Assembly: GCA_009691185.1 (NCBI GenBank)
Contig: SHVD01000005.1
Span: 1-35,898, forward strand
Length of the DNA: 35,898 nucleotides
Source: Candidatus Nanopelagicaceae bacterium
Lineage (GTDB): Bacteria > Actinomycetota > Actinomycetes > Nanopelagicales > Nanopelagicaceae
Direction: 5' to 3'
Positions 17,157 through 25,917 of the stretch are shown here, in pieces. The notes under the pieces were generated by a model. The model was not told the origin of the DNA. It did not search any database and saw only the letters and a program-made list of their open reading frames with translations. The position numbers and the translations under genes are program-made. How positions within the stretch are numbered: position 1 is the first letter of the stretch; each line of letters begins with the position of its first letter.

Positions 17157-18590
17157 TTACTTTCCCTCTTCCAACGCCCGTTTAGCAGGGTTGCCTGAGC
17201 GGGACTTCTTCTTTGGGATTTCAATATTATGTTGTCTCACTTGCCCACCGCCAATACCAGCAAAACTTGGCAACCCGGCAGGAGGATTTTTGCCTCGCAT
17301 TTGTTTCATCATTTTTTGTGCTTGGCTGAACCGTTCAACTAATGAGTTAATTTCAGAAATTGCACGACCACTGCCACGAGCAATGCGTGCTCGCCTAGAA
17401 CCATTTAGAATCTTTGGATTCCGCCGTTCCAATGGCGTCATAGATTCGATTATTGCCCTGCTCCTGACTAGCTCAGATTCATCAAAATTTTCTATTTGCT
17501 TTTTCATTCCAGCAGCACCTGGCAATAAACCCATCAACTTACTCATGCTGCCCATATTTTTCATCGCTTCAAGCTGCGAGAGAAAATCTTCAAAGGTGAA
17601 ATCTTCACCCTTTACAAACTTCTCCTCTAATTTCTTTGACGCATCCTCAGGCATTGCTCGCTTTGCCTGCTCAGCCAGGGAGGCCACATCCCCTAGCCCA
17701 AGAATCCGAGATGACATCCGTTCTGGATAAAAGAGCTCGAAATCATTTATCTTTTCACCAGTTGAAATAAAAATAATTGGCTTACCTGTTAATTCAACGA
17801 TCGACAGTGCAGCGCCACCTCTAGCATCACCATCAAGTTTGGTTAGCACTACCGCATCAAAGCCCACTCCTTGGGCAAATGATTTAGCAGTGAGGGCTGC
17901 ATCTTGGCCGATCATTGCATCGACCACAAAAAATACTTCATCTGGGTTTACTGCGTCACGCACATTTTTTACTTGTTGCATCATTTCTTCATCGATGCCG
18001 GTACGACCGGCAGTATCAATAATCACAAAATTATGTAGTTTTTCGCTGGCAAATTTCAGGCTTGCTCTTGCTACTCCAACTGGATCACCCACGCCATTTC
18101 CTGGCTCTGGAGCAAAGACTGGAATCTTTATGGATTGACCCACAATTTGCAGTTGAGTTACTGCATTTGGTCGTTGCAGATCAGCTGCTACAAGCAATGG
18201 CGTATTTCCTTCATCCTTAAGGTAGTTCGCCAATTTGCCGGCTAAAGAAGTTTTTCCAGCACCTTGCAATCCAGTTAGTAAAATCACTGTTGGTGCATTT
18301 TTGGCATATCGCACTCTGCGAGCGTTGCCCCCTAAAGTTTGGGTTAGTTGATTATTTACAATTTCAAATATTTTCTGCGATGGATTTGTACTTGTATTTA
18401 TCACATCGCTTTGTTCTTGAAATTTTTCTAGGATTTTGGCCGAAAAAATATCAGCCACTTCGAGTGCCACATCGGACTCAATTAGGGCAATTTTTATATC
18501 TTGAACAAACTCAACTAATTGTGGCTGTGTAACTTTGCCACGTAGGCCAGAAAAGAGTGTAGAAAATCTCTGGCCTAATGCTTCGAACAT
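17157..18590 (-). CDS. ffh: Signal recognition particle protein Ffh
   Basis: LTGLQGAGKTSLAGKLA, DTAGRTGID, TKLDGDARGGAALS, M-domain LMGLLPGAAGMKK..RRNPKILNGSRRARIARGSGR. Confidence 0.96.
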   Translation of the reverse strand: MFEALGQRFSTLFSGLRGKVTQPQLVEFVQDIKIALIESDVALEVADIFSAKILEKFQEQSDVINTSTNPSQKIFEIVNNQLTQTLGGNARRVRYAKNAPTVILLTGLQGAGKTSLAGKLANYLKDEGNTPLLVAADLQRPNAVTQLQIVGQSIKIPVFAPEPGNGVGDPVGVARASLKFASEKLHNFVIIDTAGRTGIDEEMMQQVKNVRDAVNPDEVFFVVDAMIGQDAALTAKSFAQGVGFDAVVLTKLDGDARGGAALSIVELTGKPIIFISTGEKINDFELFYPERMSSRILGLGDVASLAEQAKRAMPEDASKKLEEKFVKGEDFTFEDFLSQLEAMKNMGSMSKLMGLLPGAAGMKKQIENFDESELVRSRAIIESMTPLERRNPKILNGSRRARIARGSGRAISEINSLVERFSQAQKMMKQMRGKNPPAGLPSFAGIGGGQVRQHNIEIPKKKSRSGNPAKRALEEGK

Positions 18591-18610
18591 GGAGGCATCT
18601 TACATTTTAT

Positions 18611-18949
18611 TTAGATGGCGCTTTCACCACTCTCACCGGTTCTGACCCGAGTGACTGACTCAACCGATGTTGCCCAAACTTTTCCATCACCGATACTTCC
18701 GGTTTTAGCAGCATCGACAATCACCTTGATTACCTTGTCAGTCTCCTTGCTGCTAACTAATATTTCCAATCTAATCTTTGGAATTAGATCAACTTTGTAT
18801 TGAGCGCCTCGATAAACCTCAGTTAGTCCAAGTTGGCGGCCAAAACCTTTTGCCTCTGAGACAGTCATGCCAGTAATACCAGCACCAACCAGAGCTTCTT
18901 TGATAGCGTCAAGTTTTTGTGGCTTGATAATTGCGGTTATTAACTTCAT
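18611..18949 (-). CDS. glnK: Nitrogen regulatory protein P-II
   Basis: MKLITAIIKPQKLDAIKEALVGAGITGMTVSEAKGFGRQLGLTEVYRGAQY..KTGSIGDGKVWATSVESVTRVRTGE. Confidence 0.96.
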   Translation of the reverse strand: MKLITAIIKPQKLDAIKEALVGAGITGMTVSEAKGFGRQLGLTEVYRGAQYKVDLIPKIRLEILVSSKETDKVIKVIVDAAKTGSIGDGKVWATSVESVTRVRTGESGESAI

Positions 18950-20250
18950 GATCTGAAACCTCCACTTGAACTAGTTGTTAATTCATATCCAGTTTCAGCA
19001 TGCTGATCGTAATCAATTCCCGAAACTTCAGCCTCTTCTTTCACTCGCAAGCCAATAGTTTTATCGATAGCAAAGCCGATAATTAACGTTACGATAAAAG
19101 AATAAGTAAGTACAAAGAAAGCACCAAAAGCTTGCTTGCCAAGTAATGCAGTTCCACCGCCATAGAAAATTCCATTTAAGCCCAGGCTATTGATCGTGCT
19201 GCTGCCGAAAAATCCTATTGACAAGCAGCCCCACAATCCACCAACTAAGTGCACACCCACTACATCCAGTGAGTCATCAAAGTTGAATAGATACTTAAGC
19301 CCAACTGCTAGGGCACAAAATACTCCGGCAAGTAAACCAATTACGACAGCTGCCCATGGCGCAACAAATGCACACGCAGGTGTGATTGCAACCAAACCAG
19401 ATATGGCACCAGATGCCACACCTAATGAAGTCGGATGACCATCTCGAATTTTTTCAACCAACAACCAGCCAAGTGCTGCTGCTGCGGTTGCTACTTGAGT
19501 ATTTAATAAAGCAATAGCTGCAATACCATTTGCGCCCAGTGCTGACCCAGCGTTGAAACCAAACCAACCAAACCACAAAAGCCCGGCGCCAATTAAAACT
19601 AACGGCAATGAGTGAGGTCGCATCGACTCACGTCGCCACCCAACTCGTCTGCCCAAAATAATCGCCATGGCTAATCCAGCAGCACCAGCATTGATATGAA
19701 CTGCGGTTCCGCCGGCAAAATCTTCGACACCACGAGCAGCTAAGAATCCAGCACCGGTAACGGTATCGCCAACCTTGTTACCAAACGCGAATACCCAGTG
19801 CGCGACTGGGAAATAAACCACTGTCACCCAAATGGCTACGAAAACTGCCCAAGCAGTAAATTTTGTACGATCTGCAATTGCGCCAGAGATAAGAGCTGGT
19901 GTGATAATTGCAAACATCACTTGAAATGCTGCGAACGCTAATAATGGAATTGGATACACCCCACCATTGTTAGTTAACTCATTTACCGCACTTCCCAATC
20001 CTGACAATGAGATCGCGCCATACCATTGTGAATTTGCTTCATAGCCAAAAGCTAGTTTGAAGCCATAAATAACCCAAAGCACGCTAACGATTCCAATTGT
20101 TACCATAGACATCAACATCATATTTAATACGCTCTTGGCTCTAACCATGCCACCGTAAAAAAGCGCCAAGCCTGGTGTCATTAAAAGCACCAATGCGGTG
20201 CTGGCTAATACCCAAGCGGTATCACCAGTATTTAAAACTACCTCTGACAT
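18946..20250 (-). CDS. amtB: Ammonium transporter
   Basis: TAWVLASTALVLLMTPGLALFYGGMVRAKSVLNMMLMS, DFAGGTAVHINAGAAGLA, VGVHLVGGLWG. SD GGAG before the ATG. Confidence 0.96.
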   Translation of the reverse strand: MSEVVLNTGDTAWVLASTALVLLMTPGLALFYGGMVRAKSVLNMMLMSMVTIGIVSVLWVIYGFKLAFGYEANSQWYGAISLSGLGSAVNELTNNGGVYPIPLLAFAAFQVMFAIITPALISGAIADRTKFTAWAVFVAIWVTVVYFPVAHWVFAFGNKVGDTVTGAGFLAARGVEDFAGGTAVHINAGAAGLAMAIILGRRVGWRRESMRPHSLPLVLIGAGLLWFGWFGFNAGSALGANGIAAIALLNTQVATAAAALGWLLVEKIRDGHPTSLGVASGAISGLVAITPACAFVAPWAAVVIGLLAGVFCALAVGLKYLFNFDDSLDVVGVHLVGGLWGCLSIGFFGSSTINSLGLNGIFYGGGTALLGKQAFGAFFVLTYSFIVTLIIGFAIDKTIGLRVKEEAEVSGIDYDQHAETGYELTTSSSGGFRS

Positions 20251-20398: not shown

Positions 20399-21235
20399 TT
20401 AGCCAAATAAGGACTGGATGTATCGCTCTGGATCAAAGGGGGCAAGATCTGATATCTGCTCACCTGCTGCAACAAACTTGATAGGCAGTCCGCTCTCCTT
20501 TTCGATCGCCAGCGCCACCCCTCCTTTAGCTGATCCATCTAATTTGGTAATAATGAATCCGGTGATCCCCACCGACTCAATGAATACTTTCGCCTGATTC
20601 AATCCGTTTTGTCCAGTCGTGGCATCAATTACTAGCAAAATCTCATCTACTGAAGATTGCTTTTCGATTACTTTTATTACCTTACCCAACTCCGCCATCA
20701 AATTTTGCTTAGTATGCAATCGGCCAGCGGTATCAACAATTAAATAATCATAATTGCCTTCTTTGGCTTTTGTGACCGCAGAAAATGCCACCGAAGCTGG
20801 ATCACTATTGACTGGACCAATAACTATTTCAGTTTTAATTCGCTCAGCCCAAGTTTGCAACTGATCTGTAGCAGCAGCACGGAATGTGTCTGCAGCGGCT
20901 AACAAAACAGTGCTTCCGTTATTTTTAAGCACACCGGCAATCTTTGCCGCTGAGGTAGTTTTCCCTGTCCCATTAACGCCGACAATTAATATTGTTTTTA
21001 AAGAATTTCTCTCAGTTATTAAAGTGCGATCTTTTCTGCTCAACCAAGTTGAAATCACTTGAGTAATTGCTGTTTTTGCATCCTCTACTTTGACTGACTT
21101 AGCGGTCGCGATGACCTGATCTACTAATTTCACCCCCAGATCTGCCGCGATTAAATTAGTTCTTATCTCATCCCACTCTTGATCCGTTATTGCGCCAGAG
21201 CGAAGAGCAGTAAATAAACGTTGAAATAAACTCAT
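20399..21235 (-). CDS. ftsY: SRP receptor FtsY (NG domain only)
   Basis: VGVNGTGKTTSAAKIA, AADTFRAAATDQL, DTAGRLHTKQNLM, TKLDGSAKGG; 278 aa. Confidence 0.95.
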   Translation of the reverse strand: MSLFQRLFTALRSGAITDQEWDEIRTNLIAADLGVKLVDQVIATAKSVKVEDAKTAITQVISTWLSRKDRTLITERNSLKTILIVGVNGTGKTTSAAKIAGVLKNNGSTVLLAAADTFRAAATDQLQTWAERIKTEIVIGPVNSDPASVAFSAVTKAKEGNYDYLIVDTAGRLHTKQNLMAELGKVIKVIEKQSSVDEILLVIDATTGQNGLNQAKVFIESVGITGFIITKLDGSAKGGVALAIEKESGLPIKFVAAGEQISDLAPFDPERYIQSLFG

Positions 21236-21242
21236 TTACTTC

Positions 21243-24200
21243 TTAAGAAACTGCATCAACTTCACGTATACGCTGAGAGATAACCTCACTCACACCATCA
21301 CCGCGCATAGTCACACCATATAATGTATCGGCAATCTCCATAGTGCGCTTTTGATGCGTGATAATTATTAATTGAGACTTTTCGCGCCACTCTTCAAACA
21401 CTCCAAGAAGCCTTCCTAAGTTTGTATCATCTAAGGCCGCCTCAACCTCATCCATAACATAAAAAGGAGATGGTCGAGCCTTAAAGATGGCAATTAATAA
21501 GGCAACTGCAACCAAGGAGCGTTCGCCTCCAGAGAGCAACGACAACCGCTTAACTCGCGTTCCAGGAGGACGCGCCTCGACATCAATTCCTGTGGTCAAC
21601 ATGTCAGATGGATTTGTGAGAATTAGCTTTCCATCACCACCAGGGAATAACCTTGCAAAAACTAACTCAAATTCCCGCGCAGTATCCTCATAAGCTTGAG
21701 TGAAAATCTGTTGAACTCGATCATCAACCTCTTTGATGATATCTAGTAGATCTTTCTTGGCCTTCTTCAGATCTTCTAACTGTTCAGCAAGATAGCGCAA
21801 TCTCTCTTCCAGCGATGAGTACTCTTCCAGCGCTAATGGATTGATTTTTCCAAGTAAAACTAATGAGCGTTCTGCCTGAGAAAGTCTTTTCTCTTGTTGA
21901 TCTCTTCGGTATGGAATCAAATCTCCAGGAACAAACTCTCCTTGCTCGTTTTCATAAAATGTTGGTACATCATTGCTTGGATCATATTCATTAAGCAGGG
22001 TGGTTACATCAATTCCAAGCTCCTCCACCGCCTTTATCTCCATTTGTTCAATCCTGAGCCGCTGTTCAGCACGAGTAATCTCATCTTTGTGAACACTGGA
22101 GGTGAGTTTTTCTAATTCAATTGCTAACTCTCTGCTGATCGTGCGCAAACTTAGAATTTCACCTTCGCGCTCAGATCTTGATGTTTCTAATCTAGCCCGT
22201 TCAGATCCAGCACGTGAAATTGATGATTCAATTTGAATTAATGCTTCATATGAAGTGTCGGCAATCTGCTGCGCAGTTATCGCTGCCTGGGCACGATTTT
22301 CTCGCCTTGAAATTGATTTCGAGGCAGCATCTATCTCTGCCTTTGCCTGATTCTCCAATGCTAAAGCTCGTTGTGCGATTGCATCTTTACGCTCTTCAAT
22401 GGTGCGTAAATTAAGCCGTGCCTCAACCTCTTTAGATCGCGCACCTGATACTTGCGATCTTAAATCTTCTAGGTGCGTTAAATCTGGCTCAATTGGAGTT
22501 TGGTGAGATTCAAACTGCGCTATCGCAGCAGCTAAATCTCTCTCATCAAATGTACGTTGCTCACTTGCTGCCTCTAAAGTGGAGATAAGGCGATCAACCT
22601 CTTCGCTAGTGTTTTTTACATTTTGACCAGCAATCGCTAATTGTTCTGCTAACCCAGTCATTGCAGCATCTGAATCATTGAGCTTTGATAGCGCCAACTC
22701 ATAATCTTTGTTAACAGCATTGAGACGATCTTGGGCAGTATTTAACTCAAATTTAGTTCGATCACAATCAGCGGATACTTTTGCGACCTCCACTTCACAA
22801 TTTGAGGTCAGAATTGAGATCTTTTCAATTAGGTCAGCGCTCCCCGAGGATGCCACCAAATCTGTTATCTCCTTAAAAGCTGTTAATCGACCAAGAGATC
22901 CGGCTCGTAATTTCTCAGTTGACTGTAGCTTTTCAGCTAAAACCTTTAACTCACCTTCGGCTGCTTTTAAATCTATTTTTAATTTATTAAATAACCCATC
23001 GAGGCCTGGCTCTGAGGCAGTCAGTGAAGATATTTGAGTTTCAATTACTGCAAAACCTTCACGATAGCTTTTTAATCTATCTTCAGCAGAATTTTTAGCA
23101 GTTGTTAAACGACTTATCTCACCATTAGTTGCATCAATTCTGGAACGAAGTCCATTGATGTGACCTTCTTGCCTTGCAGTTCCTTCGCGTTGATCTGCAA
23201 TAGCTCGCAGTGATGCTGAAACTCGATTTTCTTCCAAAGCAAGTTGATCTTCAATAGCTTTTAAAGAGTTTGAATCAACATGTAACTGCTCTTGTGAAAT
23301 CTTTACCTGTGCAAAAAGTGTCGACTCTTCTTTTCTCAGCGACAGTGCTTCTTCTTCTAACACTTTTGGATCTCTACCTGTTGCTTTTGCCTCTTCCGCT
23401 TCTTCTGTTAAAAATCTTGCCCGCTCAGACGCTAGATTCTGCACACCTCGAATTTGTTCTCGCTGTGCTGTCAAGCGATAGAAATTTTCCTGTGCTGCGA
23501 TTAATTGTGGATTCTCACTCGCCGTAATTGCATCTAATTCAATTTCGCGGTTTCTTGCCGTGTTTAATTCTCGTTCTACCAGTTCTTTGCGCTCACGCAA
23601 CACATTCTCATCTGCAACTTCCACCTGCATCTCAGATCGCATACGAGTTAGATCATCTGCTAGCAATCGAAGTTTGGCATCTCTGACATCTGACTGAATG
23701 ACTGATGCCTTACGAGCAACCTCAGCTTGCTTGCCCAATGGCCGCAGTTGCCGACGAAGTTCAACAGTTAGATCCTGAATTCTGGCGAGATTTGTTTGCA
23801 TAGAATCCAATTTGCGCAGCGCCTTCTCTTTGCGTTTACGATGCTTTAAAACACCAGCAGCCTCTTCGATAAAAGATCTGCGCTCCTCCGGATTTGCTAG
23901 CAAGATCGCATCTAGTTGCCCTTGCCTAACAATTACATGCATTTCATGACCAATACCGCTATCACTTAACAACTCTTGAATGTCTAGTAGGCGTGTTGTT
24001 TCACCATTTAGTAAATATTCAGAGGCACCATTTCTAAATAAAACGCGAGTTATCGTTACTTCGGAAAAATCAATTGGTAGTGCGCCATCGGCATTATCAA
24101 TAGTGACTGAAACTTCAGAGCGACCAAGTGGCGCCCTGCCTGACGTACCGGCAAAAATTACATCTTCCATTTTGCCACCACGCAATGATTTTGCACCTTG

Positions 24201-24350
24201 CTCTCCTAATACCCAAGAGAGTGCATCTACAACATTTGACTTACCAGATCCATTTGGGCCAACAACGCAAGTAATGCCCTGCTCAAAATTTAAAGTAGTA
24301 GAGGAGGCAAAGGATTTGAACCCCTTCAGGTTCATACTCTTTAGATACAT
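21243..24350 (-). CDS. smc: Chromosome segregation protein SMC, apparently hinge-less (1035 aa)
   Basis: MYLKSMNLKGFKSFA, Walker A GPNGSGKSN, signature LSGGERSLVAVALL, Walker B FYVMDEVEAALDD; no recognisable hinge between the coiled-coil arms. Confidence 0.95.
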   Translation of the reverse strand: MYLKSMNLKGFKSFASSTTLNFEQGITCVVGPNGSGKSNVVDALSWVLGEQGAKSLRGGKMEDVIFAGTSGRAPLGRSEVSVTIDNADGALPIDFSEVTITRVLFRNGASEYLLNGETTRLLDIQELLSDSGIGHEMHVIVRQGQLDAILLANPEERRSFIEEAAGVLKHRKRKEKALRKLDSMQTNLARIQDLTVELRRQLRPLGKQAEVARKASVIQSDVRDAKLRLLADDLTRMRSEMQVEVADENVLRERKELVERELNTARNREIELDAITASENPQLIAAQENFYRLTAQREQIRGVQNLASERARFLTEEAEEAKATGRDPKVLEEEALSLRKEESTLFAQVKISQEQLHVDSNSLKAIEDQLALEENRVSASLRAIADQREGTARQEGHINGLRSRIDATNGEISRLTTAKNSAEDRLKSYREGFAVIETQISSLTASEPGLDGLFNKLKIDLKAAEGELKVLAEKLQSTEKLRAGSLGRLTAFKEITDLVASSGSADLIEKISILTSNCEVEVAKVSADCDRTKFELNTAQDRLNAVNKDYELALSKLNDSDAAMTGLAEQLAIAGQNVKNTSEEVDRLISTLEAASEQRTFDERDLAAAIAQFESHQTPIEPDLTHLEDLRSQVSGARSKEVEARLNLRTIEERKDAIAQRALALENQAKAEIDAASKSISRRENRAQAAITAQQIADTSYEALIQIESSISRAGSERARLETSRSEREGEILSLRTISRELAIELEKLTSSVHKDEITRAEQRLRIEQMEIKAVEELGIDVTTLLNEYDPSNDVPTFYENEQGEFVPGDLIPYRRDQQEKRLSQAERSLVLLGKINPLALEEYSSLEERLRYLAEQLEDLKKAKKDLLDIIKEVDDRVQQIFTQAYEDTAREFELVFARLFPGGDGKLILTNPSDMLTTGIDVEARPPGTRVKRLSLLSGGERSLVAVALLIAIFKARPSPFYVMDEVEAALDDTNLGRLLGVFEEWREKSQLIIITHQKRTMEIADTLYGVTMRGDGVSEVISQRIREVDAVS

Positions 24351-24405: not shown

Positions 24406-25248
24406 CTACCGTTGGCAACGCGGACAAAAATGGGAAGATCGATTCGCAAAGGCGATTCTACGGATAGCAGTGGCGCATCTTGAACATGGTTGCCCTTCAC
24501 GACCATAAACGCTTAAAGAGCGCGAAAAGTAACCACTCTCACCATTAACATTTTTATATTGCTCATCAAAGGATGTACCACCAGCCTTAATTGCACCTTT
24601 CATAACCGACACCGTACTTGTAATAACTTTTTTAATCTCCCTTTCTGATAAATCTTCACAGATTATCTCTGGATGAATTCTTGCCCGCCACAATCCTTCA
24701 TCGGCATAGATGTTTCCAATACCACTCACCACTGTTTGACTAAGCAGGGCTGGTTTTATAGCTGTTTTCTTTTGCTTTATTTTCGAAACTACCTGTTTAA
24801 TATCAAACTCTTTCGCGAATGGATCAAGTGCAATGTGTGCCACACAGGTTGGAACGCCGTCAGATTGCTGTTCTACGGATAGCCAGCCAAAGGTACGCTG
24901 ATCAATAAATCTAATTTCATCCCTAATCTTTCTTAAACGTATGCCATTACTTAATCCCAACCTGGCTCGTAAATGTGGTTGTTTTGTGGCCAGAGTTGGC
25001 TGTACTAGTAATTGGCCGCTCATTCCCAAATGCGCAACTAGTGTTATTTCTCGATTCAACTCAAACCAAAGAAACTTACCCCTTCGGTTTACTGCAATGA
25101 TTTTTGCACCATTTACTGCAGATAATGCAGCAATCGAACTGGATTTTATTGCCCTGGGATGGAAACTTTCTGCCTCACAAATAATTTTCCCTAGTACATA
25201 TTTTTCAAGCCCACTTCGAACTGTTTCAACCTCAGGTAGCTCTGGCAT
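24406..25248 (-). CDS. mutM: Formamidopyrimidine-DNA glycosylase
   Basis: MPELPEVETVRSGLEKYV, LVAHLGMSGQL, NIYADEGLWRARIHP, C-terminal zinc finger CSRCATAIRRIAFANRSSHFCPRCQR. Confidence 0.96.
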   Translation of the reverse strand: MPELPEVETVRSGLEKYVLGKIICEAESFHPRAIKSSSIAALSAVNGAKIIAVNRRGKFLWFELNREITLVAHLGMSGQLLVQPTLATKQPHLRARLGLSNGIRLRKIRDEIRFIDQRTFGWLSVEQQSDGVPTCVAHIALDPFAKEFDIKQVVSKIKQKKTAIKPALLSQTVVSGIGNIYADEGLWRARIHPEIICEDLSEREIKKVITSTVSVMKGAIKAGGTSFDEQYKNVNGESGYFSRSLSVYGREGQPCSRCATAIRRIAFANRSSHFCPRCQR

Positions 25249-25263
25249 TTCTGAGTAAAACTA

Positions 25264-25917
25264 CTATTTCTTTTTACTTCTACTACTTAAGAGATCATAA
25301 GCAAGCTTTGCCGCTGCTTGCTCCGCTTCACGTTTACTTTTTCCCTCACCATTAGGAAACTTTTCACTACTGACAATCACGGTGGCAATAAAACTCTTAT
25401 CGTGATCTGGTCCTGATTCAGTAATTTCATACTCTGGTGATGATAAATTTAAACCTGAGGTCAACTCTTGAAGAGCAGTTTTGCTATCAAGGCTGGCACC
25501 AATGTCAGATGCCACGGTAAGTGCTGGCTTTATCCACTCTAAAACTATCTGAGCGGTTTTTGCATAACCGTGCTGGATATAAATTGCACCAACTAATGCT
25601 TCTAGTGAATCTGCCAGAATTGAATTCTTATCTCGCCCGTTAGTGGCTTCCTCACCCTTGCCTATTCGAAGATGCTCACCTAGTTCTATATCTCGAGCTA
25701 TTTGTGCCAGCGCTCTCATGTTTACTACACCAGATCTAAGTGGACTTAATCTACTCTCATCTAAATTAGGAAACTGTTTGTAAAGTTCATCGGTAACAAC
25801 TAGTCCTAATACTGAATCACCTAAAAACTCTAACCGTTCATTTGTTGGAATACCACCGGCTTCGTAAGAAAAAGAACGGTGGGTTAATGCAAGTTCCAGC
25901 AACTCATCCTTAACCAA
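25264..25917 (-). CDS. rnc: Ribonuclease III (5' end uncertain; TTG start or an upstream CTG)
   Basis: LALTHRSFSYEAGGIPTNERLEFLGDSVLGLVV; DSLEALVGAIYIQHG; dsRBD at the C-terminus. Upstream in-frame residues LYSSLTERLGI resemble the normal RNase III N-terminus. Confidence 0.94.
   Translation of the reverse strand: MVKDELLELALTHRSFSYEAGGIPTNERLEFLGDSVLGLVVTDELYKQFPNLDESRLSPLRSGVVNMRALAQIARDIELGEHLRIGKGEEATNGRDKNSILADSLEALVGAIYIQHGYAKTAQIVLEWIKPALTVASDIGASLDSKTALQELTSGLNLSSPEYEITESGPDHDKSFIATVIVSSEKFPNGEGKSKREAEQAAAKLAYDLLSSRSKKK

Follow-up and report, generated by a model that had tools for sequence, protein, structure and literature searches.

A natural SMC protein without a hinge domain in freshwater Nanopelagicaceae that retain ScpAB and ParB

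The stretch of DNA analyzed here (the window; all 35,898 nucleotides of positions 1 to 35,898 of contig SHVD01000005.1, assembly GCA_009691185.1) encodes an SMC protein of 1035 amino acids (aa) that has intact ATPase heads and full-length coiled-coil arms and lacks the hinge. Its host genus (g1) is read as Candidatus Nanopelagicus (acI-B), a streamlined freshwater actinobacterium. Because the hinge was tested for and is absent, the protein is described as a hinge-less SMC and should be kept apart from the canonical hinge SMCs; it very probably works like one of them. SMC proteins are defined in part by their hinge, whose role beyond joining two SMCs is debated. In a study from 2025, a conserved role was argued for, namely letting the motors bypass obstacles. 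A very abundant freshwater genus that has lost the hinge and kept arm length, ScpAB, ParB, and parS-like sites represents a natural deletion experiment, which allows a direct test of condensin loading, translocation, and chromosome-arm alignment without a hinge gate. Its apex, moreover, offers a test of rebuilding an apex dimer from coiled coil alone.

The gene lies on the minus strand in the order rnc-fpg-smc-ftsY (Table 1), and its product reaches 765 bits against the NCBIfam model SMC_prok_B (TIGR02168; cut-off 567), with a match that is split in two parts. As the initial annotation had stated, the open reading frame is complete and the heads are intact: the split N- and C-terminal heads carry the Walker A (GPNGSGKSN), signature (LLSGGERSL), and Walker B/D-loop (FYVMDEVEAALDD) motifs without damage. 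Across the 24 species compared, 85% of the residues of the N-terminal head (1-165) are invariant, and S940, G941, G942, D967, E968, D974, and D975 are invariant columns of the C-terminal head. Further downstream, a gene for a glnK-like P-II protein and the ammonium transporter gene amtB are found between ftsY and ffh (17157-20250, minus strand).

Table 1. Positions in the window of the smc gene, the parts of its product, and the neighboring genes
Feature	Position	Strand	Basis
smc, hinge-less SMC protein, 1035 aa	21243..24350	-	ATG start; Pfam SMC_N E 1.5e-69, SMC_hinge absent
N-terminal half of ATPase head, residues 1-165, Walker A GPNGSGKSN	23856..24350	-	sequence
N-terminal coiled-coil arm, residues 169-498, about 330 aa	22857..23846	-	no indel vs L039 outside hinge; AlphaFold2 helix
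Pre-apex motif EKLRAGSLGRLTAFKEI, residues 479-495, clade-specific	22866..22916	-	entropy, clade-fixed residues, 24 species
Apex turn in the place of the hinge, residues 494-510	22821..22868	-	alignment with hinged sisters; AlphaFold2 turn position
C-terminal coiled-coil arm, about residues 505-830	21861..22838	-	alignment and model
C-terminal half of ATPase head, about residues 831-1030; signature LLSGGERSL, Walker B/D-loop FYVMDEVEAALDD	21261..21860	-	sequence
mutM/fpg (formamidopyrimidine-DNA glycosylase), upstream of smc	24406..25248	-	Pfam Fapy_DNA_glyco, H2TH, zf-FPG_IleRS
rnc (ribonuclease III), upstream of smc	25264..25917	-	Pfam Ribonucleas_3_3, dsrm
ftsY (SRP receptor GTPase), downstream of smc	20399..21235	-	Pfam SRP54, SRP54_N

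The initial annotation had further claimed that the protein is unusually short, that it lacks the hinge, and that the missing length amounts to about one hinge, all of which the present analysis bears out. A Pfam search that recovered SMC_N (E 1.5e-69) found no SMC_hinge (PF06470) in the 1035 aa at E<=10, nor did it find this domain elsewhere in the same genome or, in the order-wide search, in the relatives from the genus. The same search detected the hinge in 184 of the 206 genomes of the order and is therefore sensitive in this lineage. The appropriate yardstick for length is not the textbook 1150-1200 aa but the hinged SMCs of sampled sister genera of the family, which measure 1178-1184 aa. 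Compared with one of them (L039, 1180 aa), the protein shows indels only at the hinge, where segments of 13, 81, and 51 aa are missing; the net loss relative to the hinged sisters is 145 aa, and a hinge of about 160 aa has shrunk to 15 aa between the arms. Since the indels are confined to the hinge, arm length is preserved to the residue, and in the alignment the N-terminal arm is exactly as long as that of the hinged sisters. The span originally flagged (22715-22915) corresponds to residues 479-546, at the apex of the arms. A divergent hinge overlooked by Pfam was ruled out, as merely 15 aa lie between the arms and two AlphaFold2 models show plain helices in this region. MAFFT placed the segment ITDLVASS, within the residual 15 aa, against part of the hinge, in a match that is too short to be judged as a remnant.

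No other protein in the genome was found that could be taken for a second SMC: judged by open reading frame lengths and scores, all other SMC_N matches belong to ATPases of the RecN, RecF, and ABC types. None of the three outcomes that the initial annotation had listed against itself (an SMC_hinge match, a deletion absent from close relatives, and a second full-length SMC) was thus observed. The suggestion made there that the protein might be a Rad50/MukB-like variant holds only in part. Rad50/SbcC and the archaea-specific SMC-related proteins (ASRP) likewise form a coiled-coil hairpin without an SMC hinge, but they dimerize by a CXXC zinc hook, whereas residues 461-560 contain no CXXC in any of the 24 species, and the kleisin is ScpA. 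Cys518 is not invariant. All these family models stay far under their cut-offs (Rad50 models, at most 52 bits against 700-1087; ASRP model NF045487, 51.9 bits against 300), as do the RecN models, whereas SMC_prok_B is above its own.

The hinge-less form is a property of the genus. An smc open reading frame is present in 23 of the 25 g1 genomes, and all 23 products match the window protein over residues 1 to 1035; the two genomes without an smc match (G092 and G207) are both incomplete. An SMC of 1035 aa is also encoded by G087, from the neighboring genus g12. A deletion common to all genus members with an smc open reading frame and to a neighboring genus is neither chance nor misassembly, and its presence in all close relatives, which the initial annotation had proposed to check, extends to three single-contig genomes (G008, G011, and G019, the last of 1,161,863 bases). 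In a tree of heads and arms from which the hinge columns were removed, the hinge-less proteins form one clade (support 100/99), so that one loss within the family suffices, and the alignments indicate that the hinge was lost in frame once, in the common ancestor that Nanopelagicus shares with one sister genus. The closest pair (dS 0.20) gives a dN/dS ratio of 0.067, and other pairs, in which dS is partly saturated, give 0.03-0.04; at the codon level, smc is thus under strong purifying selection. Several genomes of the order without a hinge match fall outside g1 and g12, among them G056, in which smc is cut short (open frame of 474 aa). Nanopelagicales-like SMC genes were also found inside three records (L065, L078, and L077) titled Bifidobacterium breve (two metagenome-assembled genomes) and Ca. 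Fonsibacter lacus, names that are probably wrong.

The partners of a bacterial condensin, after which the initial annotation had asked, are retained. The genome encodes the kleisin ScpA (E 7.2e-54) and the kite protein ScpB (E 6.4e-51), both on contig C59, as well as ParB (E 6e-35), and all three are also encoded in the hinge-less genomes that consist of a single contig; the scores resemble those of the hinged sisters. In these single-contig genomes, two parS-like 16-mers lie 628 bp apart near parB. A parS-like pair with the same 628 bp spacing is present on contig C15 of the genome under study, and a similar pair occurs in hinged relatives. A control with the pattern read backwards gave 0-1 matches per genome, which means that lone sites with two mismatches elsewhere may be due to chance. 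ParB and the parS-like sites are scored here by presence.

In place of the hinge, the models predict a two-helix hairpin with a turn of two to six residues. AlphaFold2 yielded a full-length monomer model of modest quality (pLDDT 71, pTM 0.31, heads poor), in which a helix spanning residues 328-498 is followed by a short turn and a second helix (505-612), and a model of residues 401-635 as a single hairpin (pLDDT 92.8). The turn has two residues, 503-504, in the fragment and covers 499-504 in the full-length monomer, and neither model contains a globular domain at the apex. The best-fitting solved structure for the apex fragment is a coiled-coil fragment of B. subtilis Smc (5nnv, TM 0.76); beyond Smc arms, the fold search returned generic coiled coils, which are uninformative.

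The residues just before the turn are distinctive. Over the stretch EKLRAGSLGRL (residues 479-489), entropy averages 0.03 bits in 16 hinge-less species and 1.31 in hinged sisters, and this stretch is the sole one of the 14 most conserved arm windows that is not conserved in the hinged sisters too. The hinge-less clade has fixed 14 residues that are rare among its sisters, and five of these (K480, L481, S485, L486, and I495) fall into one 25-residue bin at the apex (p 1.4e-5, for a named bin). Invariant in all 24 species are E479, L481, A483, G484, L486, G487, R488, L489, A491, E494, and I495; residues 500-506 of the turn vary between species. Relative to the sisters, hydrophobic residues were gained at 481 (L481) and 486 (L486) and lost at 485 (L485). 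If the heptad register of the hinged sisters is assumed, the gained residues would occupy positions g and e beside the core, an arrangement seen in bundles with three or more helices.

With moderate confidence, we propose that the only chromosomal SMC of Ca. Nanopelagicus species is a ScpAB- and ParB-dependent condensin that is joined at its coiled-coil apex and lacks the hinge bypass gate; both dimer and function are what we infer. The ancestral in-frame loss left arms of unchanged length, which are predicted to come together as a tight hairpin of coiled coil. SMC-ScpAB would be loaded at parS, with the motor run by the heads and the kleisin, and at the apex a four-helix contact formed from the EKLRAGSLGRL-AFKEI motif would join two SMC arms, probably aided by side-by-side contacts of the arms. 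In B. subtilis, cells with a Rad50 zinc hook in place of the Smc hinge grow normally on rich medium (PMC5344682), and arm contacts probably aid dimerization of hinge-less Smc (PMC5526789). Without the hinge channel, the loop-extruding core would be kept and the single-strand bypass gate would be gone, as the Wadjet and B. subtilis work suggests: a Wadjet core without the elbow-to-hinge segment, closed by a disulfide, processes plasmid or naked DNA and cannot bypass obstacles (PMC12647877). A genome of 1.2 Mb in which two parS-like sites lie near parB may be able to do without the gate. On the other side, B. subtilis without the hinge region has been taken as an smc null (PMC5344682), and the Wadjet core needed its disulfide to stay closed (PMC12647877). 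A simple hairpin may therefore be insufficient, and the contact made by the conserved apex motif could be a different one.

The closest alternative to an apex-joined condensin is a hinge-less SMC that works with ScpAB and has no apex joint, in which the pair is held together only by the heads, by the bridging ScpA, and by arms lying side by side, so that DNA would be clamped in an open rod or V and no closed ring would form. Retention of ScpA and ScpB, the behavior of B. subtilis Smc (PMC5526789), and the variation of the turn between species all fit this arrangement. We nevertheless consider it unlikely, as the near-invariant, clade-specific motif just before the turn argues for a selected apex site, and DNA cleavage by the Wadjet core was lost once its ring had been opened by reduction (PMC12647877). 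A more radical possibility is that the protein has been repurposed as a RecN- or Rad50-like repair or tethering ATPase and is no longer a condensin. In outline, a hinge-less helical hairpin does resemble RecN and Rad50, and the null phenotype of the B. subtilis strain without the hinge region (PMC5344682) would agree with such a change. This appears quite improbable, given the low scores of the RecN and Rad50 models beside that of SMC_prok_B, the separate RecN-type open reading frame in the same genome, the lack of CXXC, the retention of ScpA, ScpB, ParB, and parS-like sites, and the unaltered arm length.

Two further explanations concern the missing domain itself. A hinge supplied by a separate gene, for which no point speaks, is highly improbable: a search that detects hinges in sister genera with E values of 1e-12 or lower gave no SMC_hinge match, and a first look gave no candidate, in the three single-contig genomes. 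That the short gene is an assembly artefact or a decaying pseudogene might be suspected from the state of its assembly (80.65% complete, 71 contigs). This idea was rejected and is scarcely credible, since 24 distinct proteins of equal length come from separate genomes, three of which are single contigs, and both the intact ATPase motifs and the dN/dS values of 0.03-0.07 speak against a pseudogene.

Hinge-less SMCs as such are already known, since they were predicted in 2025 in one marine actinobacterial cluster, for which an unknown lineage was suspected (PMC12153180, Environ Microbiome 2025;20:65). That cluster reportedly diverges close to the base of the actinobacterial SMCs, and the main text of the study is silent on ScpA and on freshwater (PMC12153180). 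Like the Nanopelagicus protein, its members are actinobacterial, have heads and arms without hinge or CXXC, and are accompanied by no hinged copy in the genome. By the description of the cluster, the Nanopelagicus SMC differs in belonging to a freshwater genus with isolate genomes, in a loss that occurred inside a hinged family, in partners that are shown, and in its recurrence in five more families. What is new compared with prior art is therefore the host genus, the placement of a single loss within a hinged family, the retained partners, the recurrence in independent families, and the apex motif.

Among known systems, canonical SMC-ScpAB (TIGR02168) shares the heads, the arms of about 330 aa, and the presence of ScpA, ScpB, ParB, and parS-like sites in the genome, whereas the apex of the Nanopelagicus SMC is hinge-less, a predicted two-helix hairpin with a conserved motif of its own. 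SMCs with channel-less hinges (Acetobacter, Wadjet II/III, and MukB; PMC12647877) also have no hinge channel and presumably no hinge bypass; however, they retain the hinge, and their arms tend to be longer, while in Nanopelagicus the whole hinge is gone and the remainder is unchanged. The protein thus departs from the trend described there, by which absence of the hinge channel goes with longer arms (PMC12647877). The engineered Wadjet ecJET(core) (PMC12647877) resembles it in the removal of the hinge and is active on naked DNA, but is laboratory-made, has also lost the arms from elbow to hinge, and is closed by a disulfide, whereas the Nanopelagicus SMC is natural and has full-length arms.

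Hinge-less SMCs recur elsewhere in Actinomycetota. In an even draw, 51 of 247 genomes of the phylum gave no hinge match, and the SMC was read in sequence for 19 listed no-match genomes besides the one under study. A missing Pfam match alone is unsafe as proof of loss, as the middle region of one protein (G313) is divergent but of full size, and two others (G258 and G292) are contig fragments; the count is therefore limited to lineages read in sequence. Intact heads without a hinge were found in families f10 (about 1015-1026 aa), f31 (885-893 aa), f38 (914 aa), f35 (785 aa), and f13 (734-771 aa), and ScpA is encoded in 15 of 16 hinge-less genomes from these other families. Within f10, proteins of about 1020 aa from six genera (L249-L254) show no indel anywhere inside the SMC, so that arm and apex length look fixed. 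In f13, f31, f35, and f38, unlike in channel-less-hinge SMCs, the hinge has been lost, and the part of the protein that separates the head motifs is shorter. The f13 SMCs (L185, L186, L188, L189, L191, and L192) have much shortened arms and an apex whose length differs between genera, and ScpA is present in 6/6 genomes.

On a heads-only tree, the hinge state changes six times, at least four of them on well-supported branches. A common origin of all hinge-less SMCs was rejected (log-likelihood 342 lower, p-AU 1e-48); f13 and f31 are grouped with weak support and may share one loss or reflect long-branch attraction. Judged from these alignments and trees, hinge-less SMCs are present in five further actinomycetotal families through several independent losses, the exact number of which depends on the root and on long branches. 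Such independent families open the hinge question to comparative study. As a tentative generalization, which we regard as quite possible though short of probable, complete hinge loss may be a recurrent route in Actinomycetota toward ScpA-partnered, core-type motors that have evolved coiled-coil apex dimers and would fold chromosomes without a bypass gate, in some families with shrunken arms (734-771 aa).

Two other SMCs depart from the usual form. The Ca. Ancillula protein (L071:1812-5126, 1105 aa) has no Pfam hinge match and a shrunken middle between its arms, possibly a partly eroded hinge. The SMC of G252 from family f25 (L231) retains a hinge match at 965 aa, clearly below the usual length, and its arms are therefore probably shorter.
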